Source: Alphaproteobacteria bacterium (lineage in GTDB: Bacteria; Pseudomonadota; Alphaproteobacteria; UBA8366). From it: 64,000 nt of DNA. Positions 25,413 to 36,153 of the stretch are shown piece by piece. Position 1 is the first letter of the stretch; each line of letters starts with the position of its first letter. The notes beneath the pieces are model-generated. The model was given only the letters and a program-made list of their open reading frames with translations. It was not told the DNA's origin and did not search any database. Made by a program: the position numbers and the translations under genes. The stretch covers positions 140,872 to 204,871 of the forward strand of contig JANQKC010000014.1 of assembly GCA_028281325.1 (NCBI GenBank). The letters run 5' to 3'.

Positions 25413-27566
25413 CTAAGAGACGAACTCGATACCGTCGTCGACCATGGGCAAGGTCGTCACCCATTTGCCCGTCGCGGCATGGATCGCGTTGGCCAGCGCC
25501 GGCCCGATCGGCGGCAGGCCCGGCTCGCCGACGCCGGTAGGCGCCTCGGCCGACGGGACGATATGGACCTCGACCTTCGGCATGTCGGCGATACGCAACG
25601 GTTCGTAATCCCAGAAGTTTGTCTGATCCACCGCGCCGTCGGTCAACGTGATCTTGTTGCGCATGACGGCGCCGAGACCGTAACCGATGCCGCCCTCCAT
25701 CTGCGCCCGGATCACATCCGGGTTCACCGCGAGACCGCAATCGACCGCGCAGACCACGCGGTCGACCTTCACCACGCCGTCGCTATCGGTGGACACGTCG
25801 ACAACCTGCGCGACGTAGGACCGGAACGACTCGTGCACCGCGACGCCACGCCCCTTCCCCTCGGCGACGGGTTCGCCCCAGCCGGCCTTTTCGGCCGCCA
25901 GCTTTAGCACGCCCGCATGGCGCGGGTGCTCCTTCAAAAGGTCCATGCGAAACGCCACCGGATCGGCTCCCGCCGCCTCGGCCAACATGTCGATAACGAT
26001 CTCGGTCGAATAGGCCGTGTGGGTGTGCCCGACCGCCCGCCACCAGAGGACCGGCACCGGCGTCTTCATGTTGCGAATGTCGACCTTGATGTTGGGAATC
26101 GCATAGGGCAGCGTCGACGCTCCTTCGACCGAGGTGGCGTCGATACCGTCTTTCACCAGTACCGACTCGAAAGGCGTGTCGACAAGGATCGACTTGCCGG
26201 CGAGTTTGTGGCTCCAAGCGACCGGCTTGCCGTCCTCGTCCAAACCGGCGGTGATCCGTTGGGCATAGATCGGGCGGTAGTATCCGCCCTGAATATCGTC
26301 CTCGCGGGTCCAAACCAGCATGACGGGGCGGCCATCGCCCAACGCCTTGGCCGCCATCGCCGCTTCCGCATTGTAATCGGCGGTCGGATTCGCGCGCCGC
26401 CCGAAGGACCCGCCCGCATAGACCGTGTGCACGTCCACATTCTCCGGCGGTATCCCCAATGTCCCGGCGACGACCGGTCGCGTGATCGATGGAAATTGAC
26501 AGCCATCCCAGACGGTGGCGCGGTCGCCGTCCACAGCGATGATGCAATTCTCCGGCTCCATCGGCGCATGCGCGAGGAAGGGGAACTTGAATTCGGCTTC
26601 CACCGTCTTGGCGGCCCCGGCGAGCGTCGCATCCGCATCGCCATCGGCGCGGGCAATCGTGCCCGGCTTTTCCAAGGCGGCGACATGCTCCGCCATGATC
26701 GCGTCAGTCGACCGATTCTCCGCCTGGGAAAAATCCCACTCGACGGAAAGCGCTTGCCGGCCCTTGATCGCGGCCCACGTATTGCGCGCGAAAACCACCA
26801 CACCGCGCGGGATCTGCTTAACGTCCAGCACGCCCTTGACGGCAAGCGCGCCGGCAGGATCGAAGGAGGCGACGGCGCCGCCGAACCGAGGCGGACGCGC
26901 GATCACAGCGTAGACCATATTGTCGACTCTTAAGTCGATCGCGAACTTGGCGGACCCGTCCGTCTTGGCCTTGCTGTCGTAGCGCGGCAAACGATCCTTG
27001 CCAATGAGACGGAAGTCGGAGGGATTCTTCAGGACTGGTTCGGCCGGTGCGCTCAACGATGACGCCGCGTCGATGAACGCGCCAAACCCGGCGGTGCGGC
27101 CGTCTGGGCCGCGCATCACGCCAGTCTCGATTGTGATGCTGGCCGGCGCGACGCCCCATTGCTTGGCGGCGGCCTCGATCAACACAGCGCGCGCCGCGGC
27201 GCCCGCCTTGCGGTACTGTTCGAAGGAATTGGCGATCGCGCTCGACCCGCCGGTGCCCTGCGACCCGAAGAGCAGATTGGCGTAACGGGATTCATCGGCG
27301 GGCGCCCATTCGACGCGTATCTGCGACCAGTCGGCATCCAACTCTTCGGCGACCAGGGTGGCGAGCCCCGTCGTCGTGCCCTGCCCCATTTCGAAATGCT
27401 TGGCGACGACAGTGACGGTTCCATCAGCGCCGATGAGAACGAACGGGTTGACTGACAACGACTGGAGCTTTTGCGCCGCCAACGCGCCCCGCGCGTCATA
27501 CCCGATAACCAGGGCCGTGGCCGCGGCCGACGCCAGAAATCCTCGTCGTGAAACCTGGATGTTCAT
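25413..27566 (-). CDS. iorB: Molybdenum hydroxylase large subunit (IorB-like, Tat-exported)
   Basis: A 717-residue xanthine dehydrogenase-family molybdopterin-binding subunit. The N-terminus has a twin-arginine signal ([17 protein letters not shown]), placing the enzyme in the periplasm, as for isoquinoline 1-oxidoreductase-type enzymes. The motif [16 protein letters not shown] and the active-site Glu in [10 protein letters not shown] near the C-terminus are visible. It would hydroxylate an aldehyde or N-heterocycle using water. Its [2Fe-2S] partner gene ends 3 bases upstream. No dedicated XdhC-type maturation factor or cytochrome partner is in the window. Confidence 0.9.
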
Positions 27567-27569
27567 GGC

Positions 27570-28031
27570 CTATGCTCCCATCTTCGACGCGGCGGTGTGA
27601 ATCGCGGCGCGTATCCGGTGATAGGTCACGCAACGGCAGGCATTGCCGTTCATATAGGCATCGATGTCCTCGTCCGTCGGCTTCGGCGTTTCGGTCAACA
27701 ATCCAACGGCCTGCATGATTTGCCCCGACTGGCAATAGCCGCATTGCACCACATCATGCTCGCGCCAAGCATCGCGCACGGCTTCCGCCGCACGGCCCTT
27801 GATGCCTTCGATGGTGATAATGTCGCGTCCGACGGCGTCCTCGACCGTCAACACACAGGCGCGTTCGGGACTGCCATCGACATGAACCGTACAGGCGCCG
27901 CACGCGGCAACGCCACAGCCAAACTTCGTTCCCGTCAGATTCAATTCATCGCGCAGCGCCCAAAGGACCGGGGTGTCCGCATCCACATCCAGCTCACGGG
28001 CAACGCCGTTTATGGTCAACGAAAAGGTCAT
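27570..28031 (-). CDS. iorA: Molybdenum hydroxylase [2Fe-2S] subunit (IorA-like)
   Basis: A 153-residue protein with the plant-type ferredoxin cluster (GCGVAACGACTVH) and the second alpha-helical cluster (QCGYCQSGQ and NACRCVTY), the two [2Fe-2S] sites of the family. The ATG at 28031 has AGGAGAT six bases upstream; an open frame 31 codons longer has no ribosome site. It passes electrons from the molybdenum centre of the adjacent IorB-like subunit. It lacks a signal peptide, as expected for a subunit exported piggy-back with its Tat-bearing partner. Confidence 0.9.
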   Translation of the reverse strand: MTFSLTINGVARELDVDADTPVLWALRDELNLTGTKFGCGVAACGACTVHVDGSPERACVLTVEDAVGRDIITIEGIKGRAAEAVRDAWREHDVVQCGYCQSGQIMQAVGLLTETPKPTDEDIDAYMNGNACRCVTYHRIRAAIHTAASKMGA

Positions 28032-28229
28032 CGCGATCTCCTCTGTTCGACACCGAGTCGGAGATAGACCGCGCACCGCGAAAGTCCATGATCGTTTTGT
28101 TAAAGCCATTGCCCCAATCGGCATGCGACGCCGTATCGTCGCATACGCGCCGCACGCATTGCCAAAAGACAGCGACTAGCGTCATCCATTGGGAGTCCGA
28201 GAGCCAGGCCCGCCAGCTCAACACCGCCG

Positions 28230-31579: not shown

Positions 31580-32788
31580 ATGGCAAATCTCCCTCTCGAC
31601 GGCGTCCGCGTCCTCGACCTGTCCTCGGTCGTCGTTGGCCCCTATGCAACGCAGTTTTTGGCCGACTACGGCGCGGACGTCACCAAGATCGAAGCGCCCG
31701 GCGGCGATATCCTGCGCAAACTCGGCGGCAAGTCGAAAAGCGGCGAGCTATCGCCGAAGTTCATGATGCTGAACCGGAACAAGAAGTCGCTGGCGATCGA
31801 CTTGAAGAACCCGGCGGCGAAACCGCTGATCGCGAAATTGCTGGCGGCGCATGACGTGGTGCTGTCGAACATCCGGCCCCGCGCGCTGGCGCGGCTCGGG
31901 CTCGACTACGAGTCGGCAAGGGCGGCACGCCCCGACGTGATCTACTGCAGCATCGTCGGGTTCGGGCAAGAAGGTCCGTACAAGGACAAACCCGCCTACG
32001 ACAACGTCATCCAGGGCGTCGGCGGAATCGCCGCCTGCCACGAGCGGCAAAGCGGCACGCCGCGATTCCTGCCGATGGTCGTGGCGGACCGGCTCGGCGG
32101 CTTGATGGCGACCCAGGCGATCCTGCTGGCGGTGATCAACCGAAGCCGGAACGGCGAAGGCCAGCATATCGAAATCCCGATGTTCGAGAACACCGCCGCC
32201 TTCGTGCTGACCGAACATTTCGGCCAACTCATCTATCCCGGGTCCGACGGCCCGAGCGGCGACCTCCGGGTCCTCGACAAAAACGCGCGGCCGATCCAGA
32301 CGAAAGACGGTTATATCTGTCTCTCCGCGAACAGCGACAAGCAGGCCTTCGCCCTGTTCGACGCCATCGGCCATCCGGAATTCAAGGACGATCCCCGATT
32401 CGAGTCGGTGGCCGCGCGGTATCACAACATCGATGCCTATAACGGGCTGCGCGAAGAGCATCTGCGGAAGAAGACCACCGAAGAGTGGATCGAGATCTTC
32501 GACCGTCTGGACGTGCCGGCGATGCCGTACAAGACCTTCGAGGACCTGGTGGCCGATCCGCACCTGAACGAGGTCGGCCTGTATCAGGAACGCGAGCATC
32601 CCTCCGAAGGAACGGTCTACAACCTGCGCCCGGTGGCAACGTTTTCGTCGATTGGCACCAAGGACGAAAACCTCGCCCCCCGGCTGGGCGAGCATTCAGC
32701 CGACGTGCTGGCCTCGATCGGCGTCGGGCGGGACGAGATCGAAACGCTCGTTTCGGACGGCGTCATTCTCGATCGTCCGCTCGACTGA
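31580..32788 (+). CDS. CaiB/BaiF family (class III) CoA-transferase
   Basis: A 402-residue formyl-CoA transferase-type enzyme. N-terminal GVRVLDLSSVVVGPYATQFL and GADVTKIEAPGGDILR are family signatures, and the catalytic Asp lies in the YDNVIQGVGGIAA region. It moves CoA between carboxylic acids through an aspartyl-thioester intermediate. It is co-transcribed with the upstream hot-dog dehydratase (3-base gap), pointing to one pathway for activating and hydrating or dehydrating an acyl-CoA. The acceptor is unknown. Confidence 0.92.
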   Translation: MANLPLDGVRVLDLSSVVVGPYATQFLADYGADVTKIEAPGGDILRKLGGKSKSGELSPKFMMLNRNKKSLAIDLKNPAAKPLIAKLLAAHDVVLSNIRPRALARLGLDYESARAARPDVIYCSIVGFGQEGPYKDKPAYDNVIQGVGGIAACHERQSGTPRFLPMVVADRLGGLMATQAILLAVINRSRNGEGQHIEIPMFENTAAFVLTEHFGQLIYPGSDGPSGDLRVLDKNARPIQTKDGYICLSANSDKQAFALFDAIGHPEFKDDPRFESVAARYHNIDAYNGLREEHLRKKTTEEWIEIFDRLDVPAMPYKTFEDLVADPHLNEVGLYQEREHPSEGTVYNLRPVATFSSIGTKDENLAPRLGEHSADVLASIGVGRDEIETLVSDGVILDRPLD

Positions 32789-32877
32789 CCGGCCCGCTAT
32801 CCTTTGACGGCACGGGTTCCGGCCCCTATCGTTACGATAAGATCGTTCAATCCCGAACATCGAAGGGATATCGCCTT

Positions 32878-33570
32878 ATGACAAAATACCATCTCGTAAG
32901 CTCCGTTACGTGACCGTGGGTCCAGCGCGCCGTGATTGCTATGCGTGCAAAGGCCGTCGAGTTCGAAGTCACCTATATCAATCTGCGTGAAAAGCCGGAT
33001 TGGTTCCTGAAAATCTCGCCGCACGGCAAGGTGCCCGTGCTGGACGTGGATGGCGTTCCGTTGTTCGAGTCCAATGCGATCGCGGAATTCCTGGATGAGA
33101 CCGTGTCGCCACGGCTGCACCCGGAAGACCCGATCGAACGGGCGCGCAACCGGGCGTGGACGGATTTCGTGCCGACTTTCTCGGCCGCCTTCCGCACCAT
33201 TTACTACAACAAGGACAAGGCCAAGGTCGACGAAGGCCTCAAGGCTGCGCCGGCAACCGTGGAGAAGCTTGAGAAGGCCCTCGCGGAGCGTGGCAACGAC
33301 GGACCCTATTTCAACGGTCCCGACCTGAGCCTCGTGGACGCGGCCTACGCGCCGTTCCTGCAGCGTTTCCTCATCGCCGACGAAAAGCTGCAAACGGGGC
33401 TCCTGGACGGCTTCCCGCTGGTCAAGGCGTGGGCCGAGACGCTGTTGGCCGACGACCGGGTCACCGGATCGGTCGCGCCGGAATTCAGGCAGGCGTTCAT
33501 CGCCAATCTGAAACGGCAGGGGTTCTACGTCGGAACGCTGTTCCCGGACGAGGCGGCAGCGGCCGACTAA
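32878..33570 (+). CDS. Glutathione S-transferase, candidate selenoprotein (UGA at the catalytic Cys position)
   Basis: The frame runs from ATG at 32878 to the stop at 33570 (230 residues) but holds TGA at 32911-32913, codon 12. Translation on both sides is one continuous GST: MTKYHLVSSVT, then the UGA, then PWVQRAVIAMRAK and the thioredoxin-fold motif HGKVPVLDVDG followed by FESNAIAEFLDE, then a helical C-terminal domain. In omega/lambda-type relatives the position before PWVQR is the catalytic Cys (TCPW). A UGA exactly there, with a SECIS-like hairpin immediately downstream, points to selenocysteine rather than a random nonsense mutation. The ATG has AAGGGA nine bases upstream. Internal starts (32932, 32941) would lose the active site and lack ribosome sites. 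A pseudogene is the alternative. Confidence 0.8.
32919..32955 (+). promoter_or_regulatory. Candidate bacterial SECIS hairpin
   Basis: Immediately after the in-frame UGA (32911-32913), GCGCGC at 32925-32930 pairs with GCGTGC at 32943-32948 (one G-U). CC at 32922-32923 pairs with GG at 32952-32953 across a small A/AAA internal loop, and GG at 32919-32920 pairs with CC at 32954-32955 around a bulged T. The apical loop is 12 nt (CGTGATTGCTAT) and begins 17 nt after the UGA, with G as its second base. As I recall the bacterial SECIS consensus, it asks for 16-37 nt from UGA to loop, a loop of 3-14 nt and a G in the first two loop positions; all are met. Confidence 0.65.
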
Positions 33571-34703: not shown

Positions 34704-35537
34704 TCAGAAAAAGGCGAGCGTCCGCGTCTCGATGCTTTCGCGCGGCGGCGCGTTGGGCGGCGACGTCGGGTCCTCGAAGGCGCTATGCGCCGAAAAGCGC
34801 GCGCGGCCGTCGGTCATCGAGTCGTAGCATTTGAAGACCAACGCCTCGTTCCGGTCCATTTCGGGGAAATAGAACCAGCGATGATCCGGATTATGCGCGA
34901 TCTGCAACACCTCGCCGATGCGGTCCTGATAGACCAGATCGGTCGGCACGAAATCGTCGGCGGCGATGCTCTGCGCATCGCATATGGCAAGCGGCAGGTC
35001 CTGCACCGGCTTGCGGATCGGGCGCCAGATCTGCACCACCGCGAACCGGCGTTGCAGCAGGTCGTCGGCCTCGTCCGGCAACAGGTCGCGCACCCGTTGC
35101 GGCCCGGATTTGTCGGTGTAGTCGTTGTGCACCACGCGGACGGGTTCCCGGAGTTTCTTCTCGGCCCGCGTCTCGTCGGACGCGACCCGCAGCGTGTGAT
35201 CGAAGACGTGGACGCGGGACGCGCCGCTGAACCGTTTCACCAATTCCGCCGCTTCGGCGTCATACACCGCCTTGATCTCGTCCGGATCAAAAAAGCTCTC
35301 GACCTTGGTCTCGTGCGGCGTGAAGACGAATCCCTCGCGGTCCAGCGTGCGCTCGCCGCCATCGAGCCGCCCATTGCGGATCGTCATCACATGTTCCTTG
35401 AACTCGGCCTCGCGTTCGGTCGAGGCCTGCCCCGCCTGCGCGATATACGTTCGCGGTTTCTGGCCGGTTTTCACGAGATACCGAAGCGCTGCGTCGACGG
35501 ATTCACGGGGCAATTGCTGCCGGGCCGGGTCTGCCAT
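34704..35537 (-). CDS. CmcJ/NvfI-type 2-oxoglutarate-dependent oxidoreductase
   Basis: A 277-residue protein with the non-haem iron His-x-Asp in VRVVHNDYT, the VQIWRPI segment and a distal His-containing ALVFKCYDS...FSAHSAFEDP region, the pattern of the CmcJ/NvfI (AsaB-like) family. These enzymes hydroxylate or otherwise oxidise small molecules using Fe(II) and 2-oxoglutarate. The ATG at 35537 has AAAGGATAT upstream; a start 14 codons earlier lacks one. No biosynthetic cluster is evident around it. Confidence 0.8.
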   Translation of the reverse strand: MADPARQQLPRESVDAALRYLVKTGQKPRTYIAQAGQASTEREAEFKEHVMTIRNGRLDGGERTLDREGFVFTPHETKVESFFDPDEIKAVYDAEAAELVKRFSGASRVHVFDHTLRVASDETRAEKKLREPVRVVHNDYTDKSGPQRVRDLLPDEADDLLQRRFAVVQIWRPIRKPVQDLPLAICDAQSIAADDFVPTDLVYQDRIGEVLQIAHNPDHRWFYFPEMDRNEALVFKCYDSMTDGRARFSAHSAFEDPTSPPNAPPRESIETRTLAFF

Positions 35538-35684
35538 GACGGTATATCCTTTCGATGCCTCCGGGCATGATAGCCGCACAAAATTGGTGCGGGGCCTAAA
35601 AAGGTATTCAATCGGAATATGCGGTCAAGATAACCCCGCCGGCAAAGACTTAGGACGCAACGGAACAAATCACGGACCCTTTCC

Positions 35685-35884
35685 ATGACGGCGCTTTTCT
35701 CCCCTTTCCGCCTGCGCGGCCTCGAATTTCCGAACCGGATCACCGTGTCGCCCATGTGCCAGTGCAGCGCGGTCGACGGGTCGGCGTCCGATTGGGCGCT
35801 CAAATTTCTTTCCCCCCGCAATACATCCGGGCCTACAAGTCCGGCTGGTTGCGGGCGCAGGCCGCCGGCGAAGCCGACGAATAG
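35685..35884 (+). pseudogene. Remnant of an Old Yellow Enzyme-type NADH:flavin oxidoreductase
   Basis: From 35685 the frame reads LFSPFRLRGLEFPNRITVSP followed by MCQCSAVDG, a textbook N-terminus of the OYE/YqjM family, for about 39 residues. Similarity then stops. From about 35814 a different frame reads PPQYIRAYKSGWLRAQAAG and ends at TAG 35882, which resembles an OYE C-terminal tail. The roughly 300-residue TIM-barrel core between is missing. This looks like a large internal deletion with a frame change. The N-terminal match is firm, the C-terminal one tentative. Confidence 0.65.
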
Positions 35885-35951
35885 GCGTCCCTCATGTCGG
35901 CCGATCCGGGATCATGCGCGCCAGCATGCTGCTGAAAACGTCATTCGTCTC

Positions 35952-36037
35952 CTTCGAGACGGGCCTATCGGACCTCCTCAAGGTAAGGAAAACAAACAAA
36001 AGCCTCATGGTGAGGAGGCGCGAGAGCGCCGTCTCGA
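35952..36037. repeat. Dispersed palindromic element, copy 2
   Basis: Same design as the element at 13602-13701: outer arms TCGAGACG (35954-35961) and CGTCTCGA (36030-36037), inner arms CCTCCTCA (35973-35980) and TGAGGAGG (36011-36018), AT-rich centre with AAACAAACAAA. The ends are conserved and the middle is diverged. It follows the decayed oxidoreductase fragment and precedes the SDR gene. Confidence 0.75.
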
Positions 36038-36153
36038 CCCATGGAGACCGAACACCATGACCTTTTCAGCAACCTGTCAGGGCAATTTGACGGATTGTCC
36101 ATCGCCCGTAGGATGACCCGAACATCACAACCATCCAACACAAGGACGGAATC

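Follow-up and report, generated by a model that had tools for sequence, protein, structure and literature searches.

The locus and its in-frame UGA

The window (the whole stretch of DNA that was analysed, 64,000 nucleotides of an alphaproteobacterial assembly) contains a gene for a glutathione transferase (GST)-like protein with a UGA inside its reading frame. The frame opens with the ATG at 32878 and closes with a TAA (33568-33570). The following features were assigned.

32862..32868, forward strand: GAAGGGA, a possible ribosome-binding site 9 nt 5' of the ATG, found by eye
32878..33570, forward strand: GST-like coding sequence with a predicted selenocysteine (Sec), 230 codons plus TAA, the UGA being read through
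32911..32913, forward strand: codon 12, a UGA within the frame that is predicted to encode selenocysteine at the catalytic site
32925..32948, forward strand: predicted bacterial SECIS hairpin (RNAalifold) with a 6-bp stem, 32925-32930/32943-32948
32926..32934, forward strand: codons 17-19 (CGC GCC GTG), whose synonymous sites do not vary among the 64 UGA genes but do so among the 17 Cys genes

The TGA of codon 12 is the sole stop inside the 230 codons, so the GST frame described earlier as broken at this one position indeed contains no other. When the TGA was passed as Cys, the Pfam families GST_N_2, GST_N_3, GST_N, GST_C_2 and GST_C were matched. One of these matches (PF13409, GST_N_2, 65.4 bits) covers residues 11-75 and spans codon 12. 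The similarity is found in the same register 5' and 3' of the TGA, both in the GST_N/GST_C matches and in the alignments, which bears out what had been noticed by eye. With its N- and C-terminal GST domains and its predicted fold, the protein can be placed in the GST superfamily.

Codon 12 in related genes

The protein was used to search a set of 59 related genomes (the source genome included). A homologue with exactly one stop, the TGA at codon 12, is found in 16 of them, at 63-100% identity. The nearest stop-free homologues of this set (49-50% identity) carry TGC at that codon. A scan of the GTDB species genomes gave 444 related loci, of which the best 80 were kept. An alignment at codon 12, as the preliminary description had suggested, gave TGA in 63 of these, TGC in 11 and TGT in 6. 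The ratio of 63 to 17 is not a population frequency, since the scan patterns favour the motif and the best 80 of the 444 loci were retained. The two counts also overlap, as 13 of the 16 TGA relatives are among the 63 TGA loci. Nearly all of the 80 loci come from metagenome-assembled genomes, labelled as alphaproteobacteria, gammaproteobacteria or plain Proteobacteria. A relative of the same genus has the TGA as well (92% identity). As in other bacterial selenoproteins, the in-frame UGA is aligned with Cys or UGA in the homologues, and both of its flanks are conserved.

A quick tree (88 rows) requires six or more changes between Sec and Cys, which is fewer than in any of 500 shuffles. The starred branches force only one of these changes, and two long-branch joins were flagged. 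The outgroup and the deepest ingroup rows have Cys. Sec was presumably gained early in the clade and returned to Cys several times, on a rooting that is not firm; repeated loss of Sec is likely.

A distant GST with 28% identity to the query was also seen in one of the relatives (G002:C18:80399-80974, reverse strand). It has one TGA inside the match.

Selenium machinery and its co-occurrence with the UGA gene

The source assembly measures 5.1 Mb in 41 contigs and is 98.9% complete. A check for the four selenium genes had been proposed, and all four were found. The genes selA (600.6 bits), selB (451.6 bits) and selC are clustered on one strand of a contig other than that of the window. The tRNA-Sec encoded by selC scores 76.7 bits and is called by ARAGORN as tRNA-SeC with anticodon tca (UCA). 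The fourth gene, selD (411.7 bits), is located apart from these three. It has an in-frame TGA of its own, in the motif HGGG-U-GCK (L061 1501-2430, forward strand; G000:C17:10982-11911), followed on its 3' side by a foldable hairpin. The product of this gene is predicted to be a Sec-containing SelD, so that the genome has at least one further predicted selenoprotein. A glutathione synthetase is encoded in the genome too. The single tRNA gene of the window is a tRNA-Met.

A second SelD-like domain was observed on another contig (L062 1501-2418, forward strand; G000:C33). It lacks a TGA and lies inside an open frame of 819 codons, which brings the SelD-type frames of the genome to two.

The machinery was also searched for in the genomes of 50 of the 80 loci, namely all 17 Cys loci and 33 of the 63 UGA loci. 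The latter were picked by hand before the results were seen; overlap with the 59 relatives was left out and gammaproteobacteria were included. After removal of L098 and L140, 31 UGA and 17 Cys genomes remained (48 in total). SelB scored above the cut-off in 28 of the 31 UGA genomes versus 4 of the 17 Cys genomes, and a tRNA-Sec was found in 26 versus 5. Either of the two is present in 28/31 versus 5/17 genomes (Fisher p 2.6e-5, a value that ignores kinship). The 59 relatives give a similar picture: SelB or tRNA-Sec is present in 14 of the 16 with the UGA gene and in 8 of the 43 without it (p 2e-6, likewise ignoring kinship). For the tRNA-Sec, the cut was set at E <= 1e-11 in the 48-genome search and at >65 bits in the 59 relatives, the latter chosen after a gap between 67.8 and 53.9 bits had been noticed. 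The Rfam gathering score is too loose for tRNA-Sec here, as 38 of the 59 genomes pass it.

Five UGA genomes (G039, G053, G099, G100 and G103) fall below the cuts for SelB and for tRNA-Sec alike. Two of these, G039 and G053, are 88% and 77% complete, respectively. In G039 there is a tRNA-Sec match of 50.5 bits, which is above the Rfam gathering score and below the 65-bit cut. Conversely, 5 of the 17 Cys genomes nonetheless carry the Sec machinery, and the relatives G004 and G008 have the machinery together with a Cys form of the gene. Overall, the genomes with TGC or TGT at codon 12 are mostly those without Sec machinery, which indicates that Sec and Cys replace each other at this single site within the family.

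On G004:C27 and G008:C4 (L025, L026, L041 and L053), a Cys-type homologue and selB share the contig at a distance of about 27 kb, in genomes where both tRNA-Sec and SelB are present.

Read-through and the predicted SECIS hairpin

The 63 UGA loci and the window together provide 64 UGA genes. In all of these, codon 13 encodes Pro and codon 15 encodes Val. The Val15 codons in the 63 loci are GTC (18), GTG (16), GTA (15) and GTT (14), and those of Pro13 are CCC (40), CCG (14) and CCA (9). No start codon common to the UGA genes occurs between the UGA and Val15. The two amino acids are kept while their codons vary, 3' of the UGA and ahead of any start codon shared by the genes; such selection at the protein level shows that translation crosses the UGA.

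A different kind of conservation is seen a few codons further on. Among the 27 columns of codons 3-57 that have an invariant residue with degenerate codons, only codons 17, 18 and 19 use a single codon in 64/64 UGA genes. At these three positions, 4, 5 and 4 different codons occur in the 17 Cys genes. The fixed CGC-GCC-GTG bases account for the larger part of the 5' arm and for the beginning of the loop in the predicted hairpin, in which nucleotides 15-20 pair with 33-38 (counted from the UGA). The loop comprises 12 nt (32931-32942) and begins with CGUGAU. The gap between the UGA and the stem is 11 nt, that between the UGA and the loop 17 nt.

All six pairs are intact in 61 of the 63 UGA loci versus 5 of the 17 Cys loci, and a hairpin of this geometry with at least 4 bp can be formed in 63 of 64 UGA genes versus 5 of 17 Cys genes. 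Of 56 distinct rows, 53 have a G-C at pair 15-38, and the remaining three (L117, L141 and L149, which sit at two places of the tree) have an A-U instead. The covariation score and the cells paired both exceed all 500 shuffles, which ignore relatedness. The number of pairs changed on both sides lies within the range of the shuffles (82/500).

Folding of single sequences was considered as a proof of the SECIS and was rejected. A 60-nt segment of the window RNA that starts at the UGA is no more stable than its shuffled versions (z 0.29; 118 of 200 shuffles fold as well), and the mean energy of nucleotides 15-38 hardly separates the UGA genes (-8.1 kcal/mol) from the Cys genes (-7.8 kcal/mol). The six pairs of the window itself have predicted probabilities of 0.74-1.0. 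In a 51-nt context, the probability of the central pair 18-35 exceeds 0.5 in only 43 of 64 UGA genes, falling as low as 0, versus 1 of 17 Cys genes. It is the codon fixation and the pair pattern that carry the SECIS assignment.

For bacterial SECIS elements (bSECIS), a 2026 review gives a model with a stem of 4-16 bp, a loop of 3-9 nt, a spacing of 16-37 nt and a G in the first two loop positions, and adds that some elements fall outside these limits (PMC13188914). The stem of 6 bp, the loop start CGU and the spacing of 17 nt are within the published limits; the apical loop of 12 nt is longer than the 3-9 nt of the model. On this comparative evidence, the hairpin 11 nt 3' of the UGA, with its fixed CGC-GCC-GUG core, is presumably a SECIS that would be bound by SelB.

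Alternative readings of the UGA

It could be argued that the UGA is a true stop and that the working protein is a shortened GST, translated from the GTG of codon 19 (32932) as in the output of public gene callers. This GTG is present in 64/64 UGA genes, and in a pattern test 82 of the 120 best-listed database proteins start after the site. The database starts, however, are themselves gene-caller output, and just 3 of the 17 Cys orthologues possess the GTG. A protein starting there would lose the first strand and the catalytic residue. Moreover, at codons 3-9, 11, 13 and 15 the amino acid is mostly or always the same despite variable third positions, Val15 being the clearest case. The shortened GST is accordingly given very little chance. 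The 82 database proteins that start past the catalytic residue are probably UGA genes as well, and the three fixed codons (64/64 UGA genes) could be used to mark members that were shortened by gene callers. Alternatively, the UGA might be decoded as a residue other than Sec, such as Trp, through a variant code or near-cognate suppression. A metagenome database protein of the clade (P0097) does have Trp at the site, perhaps because UGA was translated as Trp in gene calling. Against this, each of the 17 loci (of 80) that lack the UGA has a Cys codon, and the genome possesses a full Sec system with a UCA tRNA-Sec. The neighbouring CoA-transferase gene terminates with a TGA (32786-32788), so UGA also serves as a stop in this genome. 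Such a reading has next to no probability.

The gene could also be a pseudogene, or its TGA an error of sequencing or assembly. A young pseudogene can show a single nonsense change, and this is the one point of support that was found. The protein is well conserved, however, with a mean column identity of 77% in an alignment of 17 rows, of which 15 are UGA genes. Both sequencing error and further frame damage in related strains had been named in the preliminary description as dangers to its reading. The 16 TGA homologues in the relatives are free of any additional stop. As the TGA recurs in the same-genus relative and in 63 of the best 80 loci, which stem from many assemblies, a sequencing error is very unlikely. 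Decay and error together are about as improbable as the reading as Trp. The selenocysteine GST that had been proposed is supported by the machinery, by the conservation of the TGA and by the intact TGA homologues. As a prediction from sequence, it is nearly certain that the gene product is a selenoprotein.

Active site and proposed mechanism

The AlphaFold2 model, with Cys placed at position 12, has a mean pLDDT of 91.4. Its best Foldseek match is the tau GST 1gwc (TM 0.82), and omega GSTs and DHARs are matched too. Thiol-dependent reductase 1 (TDR1), omega GSTs and plant DHARs are among the nearest relatives of solved structure. In the sequence alignment, the counterpart of residue 12 is Cys in the omega GSTs, in both TDR1 domains and in pyrimidodiazepine synthase, and Ser in the wheat tau GST. 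These aligned residues are taken to be the catalytic residues of the respective enzymes. In addition, K51, V52, P53, E64 and S65 are identical in 81 of 81 rows; they presumably belong to the glutathione-binding region of GSTs. Decoding of the UGA as Sec in a glutathione-dependent active site is highly probable.

The window protein has no Cys residue at all. Among the 64 UGA proteins, 17 have none, 38 have one, eight have two and one has three. The commonest Cys column is residue 151, with Cys in 38 of the 64 proteins and Ser in 23, including the window. Since the window protein is free of Cys and no column has Cys throughout, a protein thiol is not available as general resolving partner, and it is most likely glutathione that would resolve a Sec-SG intermediate.

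From these residues and from the Cys-type GSTs, a one-site (monothiol-type) scheme can be drawn up, which is slightly favoured. The UGA of codon 12 would be decoded as Sec by the SelA, SelB, tRNA-Sec and SelD of the genome, with SelB binding the hairpin 11 nt beyond it. The resulting selenolate would then attack a peroxide, a mixed disulphide or a similar substrate. Finally, glutathione would resolve the Sec-SG intermediate.

The most likely function of the enzyme is that of a glutathione-dependent selenol reductase. Peroxides are put forward as the likeliest class of substrates, a guess for which the balance is about even. A variant of this explanation holds that the main role of the selenoprotein is dehydroascorbate reduction, deglutathionylation or the conjugation of electrophiles rather than peroxide reduction, with Sec serving rate or resistance to over-oxidation. 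The presence of TDR1, omega GSTs and plant DHARs among the nearest solved relatives favours such a role. The data do not separate it from a peroxidase, and the two are not mutually exclusive; its chances are rated slightly below even. A more specific reading joins all parts together: a natural selenium glutathione peroxidase on a GST scaffold, in an alpha- and gammaproteobacterial clade where Sec is the common state of the catalytic site and acts with glutathione in the absence of a resolving Cys, and with the CGC-GCC-GUG core and the unusually long 12-nt loop forming a separate class of bSECIS. In this full form the proposal is tentative and, on balance, rather unlikely.

Relation to known GSTs and selenoproteins

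Omega GSTO1, TDR1, pyrimidodiazepine synthase and DHAR share with the window protein the two-domain fold (predicted here), a catalytic chalcogen followed by Pro, and the glutathione-site residues. These Cys-type GSTs differ from it by a Cys codon in place of the UGA, and their identity is about 22-31% in the Foldseek matches listed. The tau plant GST is the closest in fold, but the wheat enzyme has a Ser at the site.

Omega-class GSTs have thioltransferase and dehydroascorbate reductase activity, and they carry an N-terminal extension of about 20 residues. The window protein resembles them in the catalytic Cys/Sec that precedes a Pro at the N-domain site. The extension is absent, as residue 8 of the window protein aligns with residues 27-34 of the GSTO1 chains, and for this reason the protein is not filed as omega class. 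The preliminary description had located the UGA at the catalytic Cys of omega/lambda-type GSTs. As regards the omega Cys this position agrees with the alignment, while the omega/lambda class itself is left unsettled by nearest solved relatives that comprise both Cys-type omega-like enzymes and tau GSTs.

GST-like selenoproteins have been predicted since 2005, a point that is absent from the preliminary description. A survey of the Sargasso Sea counted GST, with four sequences, among its 15 new selenoprotein families (COG0625, PMC1088965), and 12 GST selenoprotein sequences were reported from GOS in 2008 (PMC2398784). They are also tabulated, under PF13409, in reviews from 2022 and 2026 (PMC9312934, PMC13188914), the latter of which describes the functions of these families as largely uncharacterised. 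An algal Sec-GST family has been reported as well (PMC7539508). Among the matches listed in the literature searched, no natural Sec-GST with an experimental test was found; one further paper (PMC12013277) makes no mention of GST or glutathione. The published family resembles the present one in that Sec is likewise predicted in a GST protein, with Cys homologues elsewhere; it was first recognised in marine sequence. With its representatives (PPR62222.1 and MEK9676863.1) the clade is compared here at the level of domain family (COG0625/PF13409) and UGA. The evidence supports well that the clade belongs to this already known kind. The codon-fixed, long-loop SECIS across the clade and the tie between the Sec/Cys state and the machinery may be new.

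Semisynthetic and engineered seleno-GSTs, with Sec in the active site of a GST, display glutathione peroxidase activity (PMC10812501, PMC9944854). In one of these, a tau GST obtained by shuffling and given an active-site Sec, the kcat/Km for cumene hydroperoxide was 2746-fold that of the wild type (PMC10812501). Whereas the seleno-GSTs in this literature are made in the laboratory, the one described here is encoded by the genome. The clade appears to make in nature the very change that was engineered in these enzymes, with the Cys orthologues as built-in controls. Such pairs of Sec and Cys orthologues make the question of 'why selenium' testable within one family.

Genomic neighbourhood

The neighbours of the gene in the window encode a CoA-transferase, a MaoC-like protein, a hydroxyacid dehydrogenase and a CmcJ-type protein. 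The operon context was considered as a clue to the substrate and rejected, as the neighbours recur in the same arrangement only at the same-genus locus L094. Fifteen of the other 79 loci have one weak match each to a window neighbour (27-39% identity), located elsewhere in the flank. No recurrent gene cluster was found in more than 9 of 81 loci in flanks of up to 4 kb, many of which are cut by contig ends, and no partner in an operon emerged.

Three further observations concern the window itself. The CmcJ-type neighbour is an oxidoreductase of the CmcJ/NvfI family (34704-35579, reverse strand, 326 bits), about 1.1 kb from the GST gene. At 35685-36116 on the forward strand, an N-terminus resembling Old Yellow Enzyme was recognised by eye; the likeness then fades, no Pfam family is matched, and the frame is possibly a gene remnant. 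On the other side of the GST gene, a molybdenum hydroxylase pair occupies 25413-28124 on the reverse strand and consists of a large MoCoBD subunit and a small 2Fe-2S subunit.
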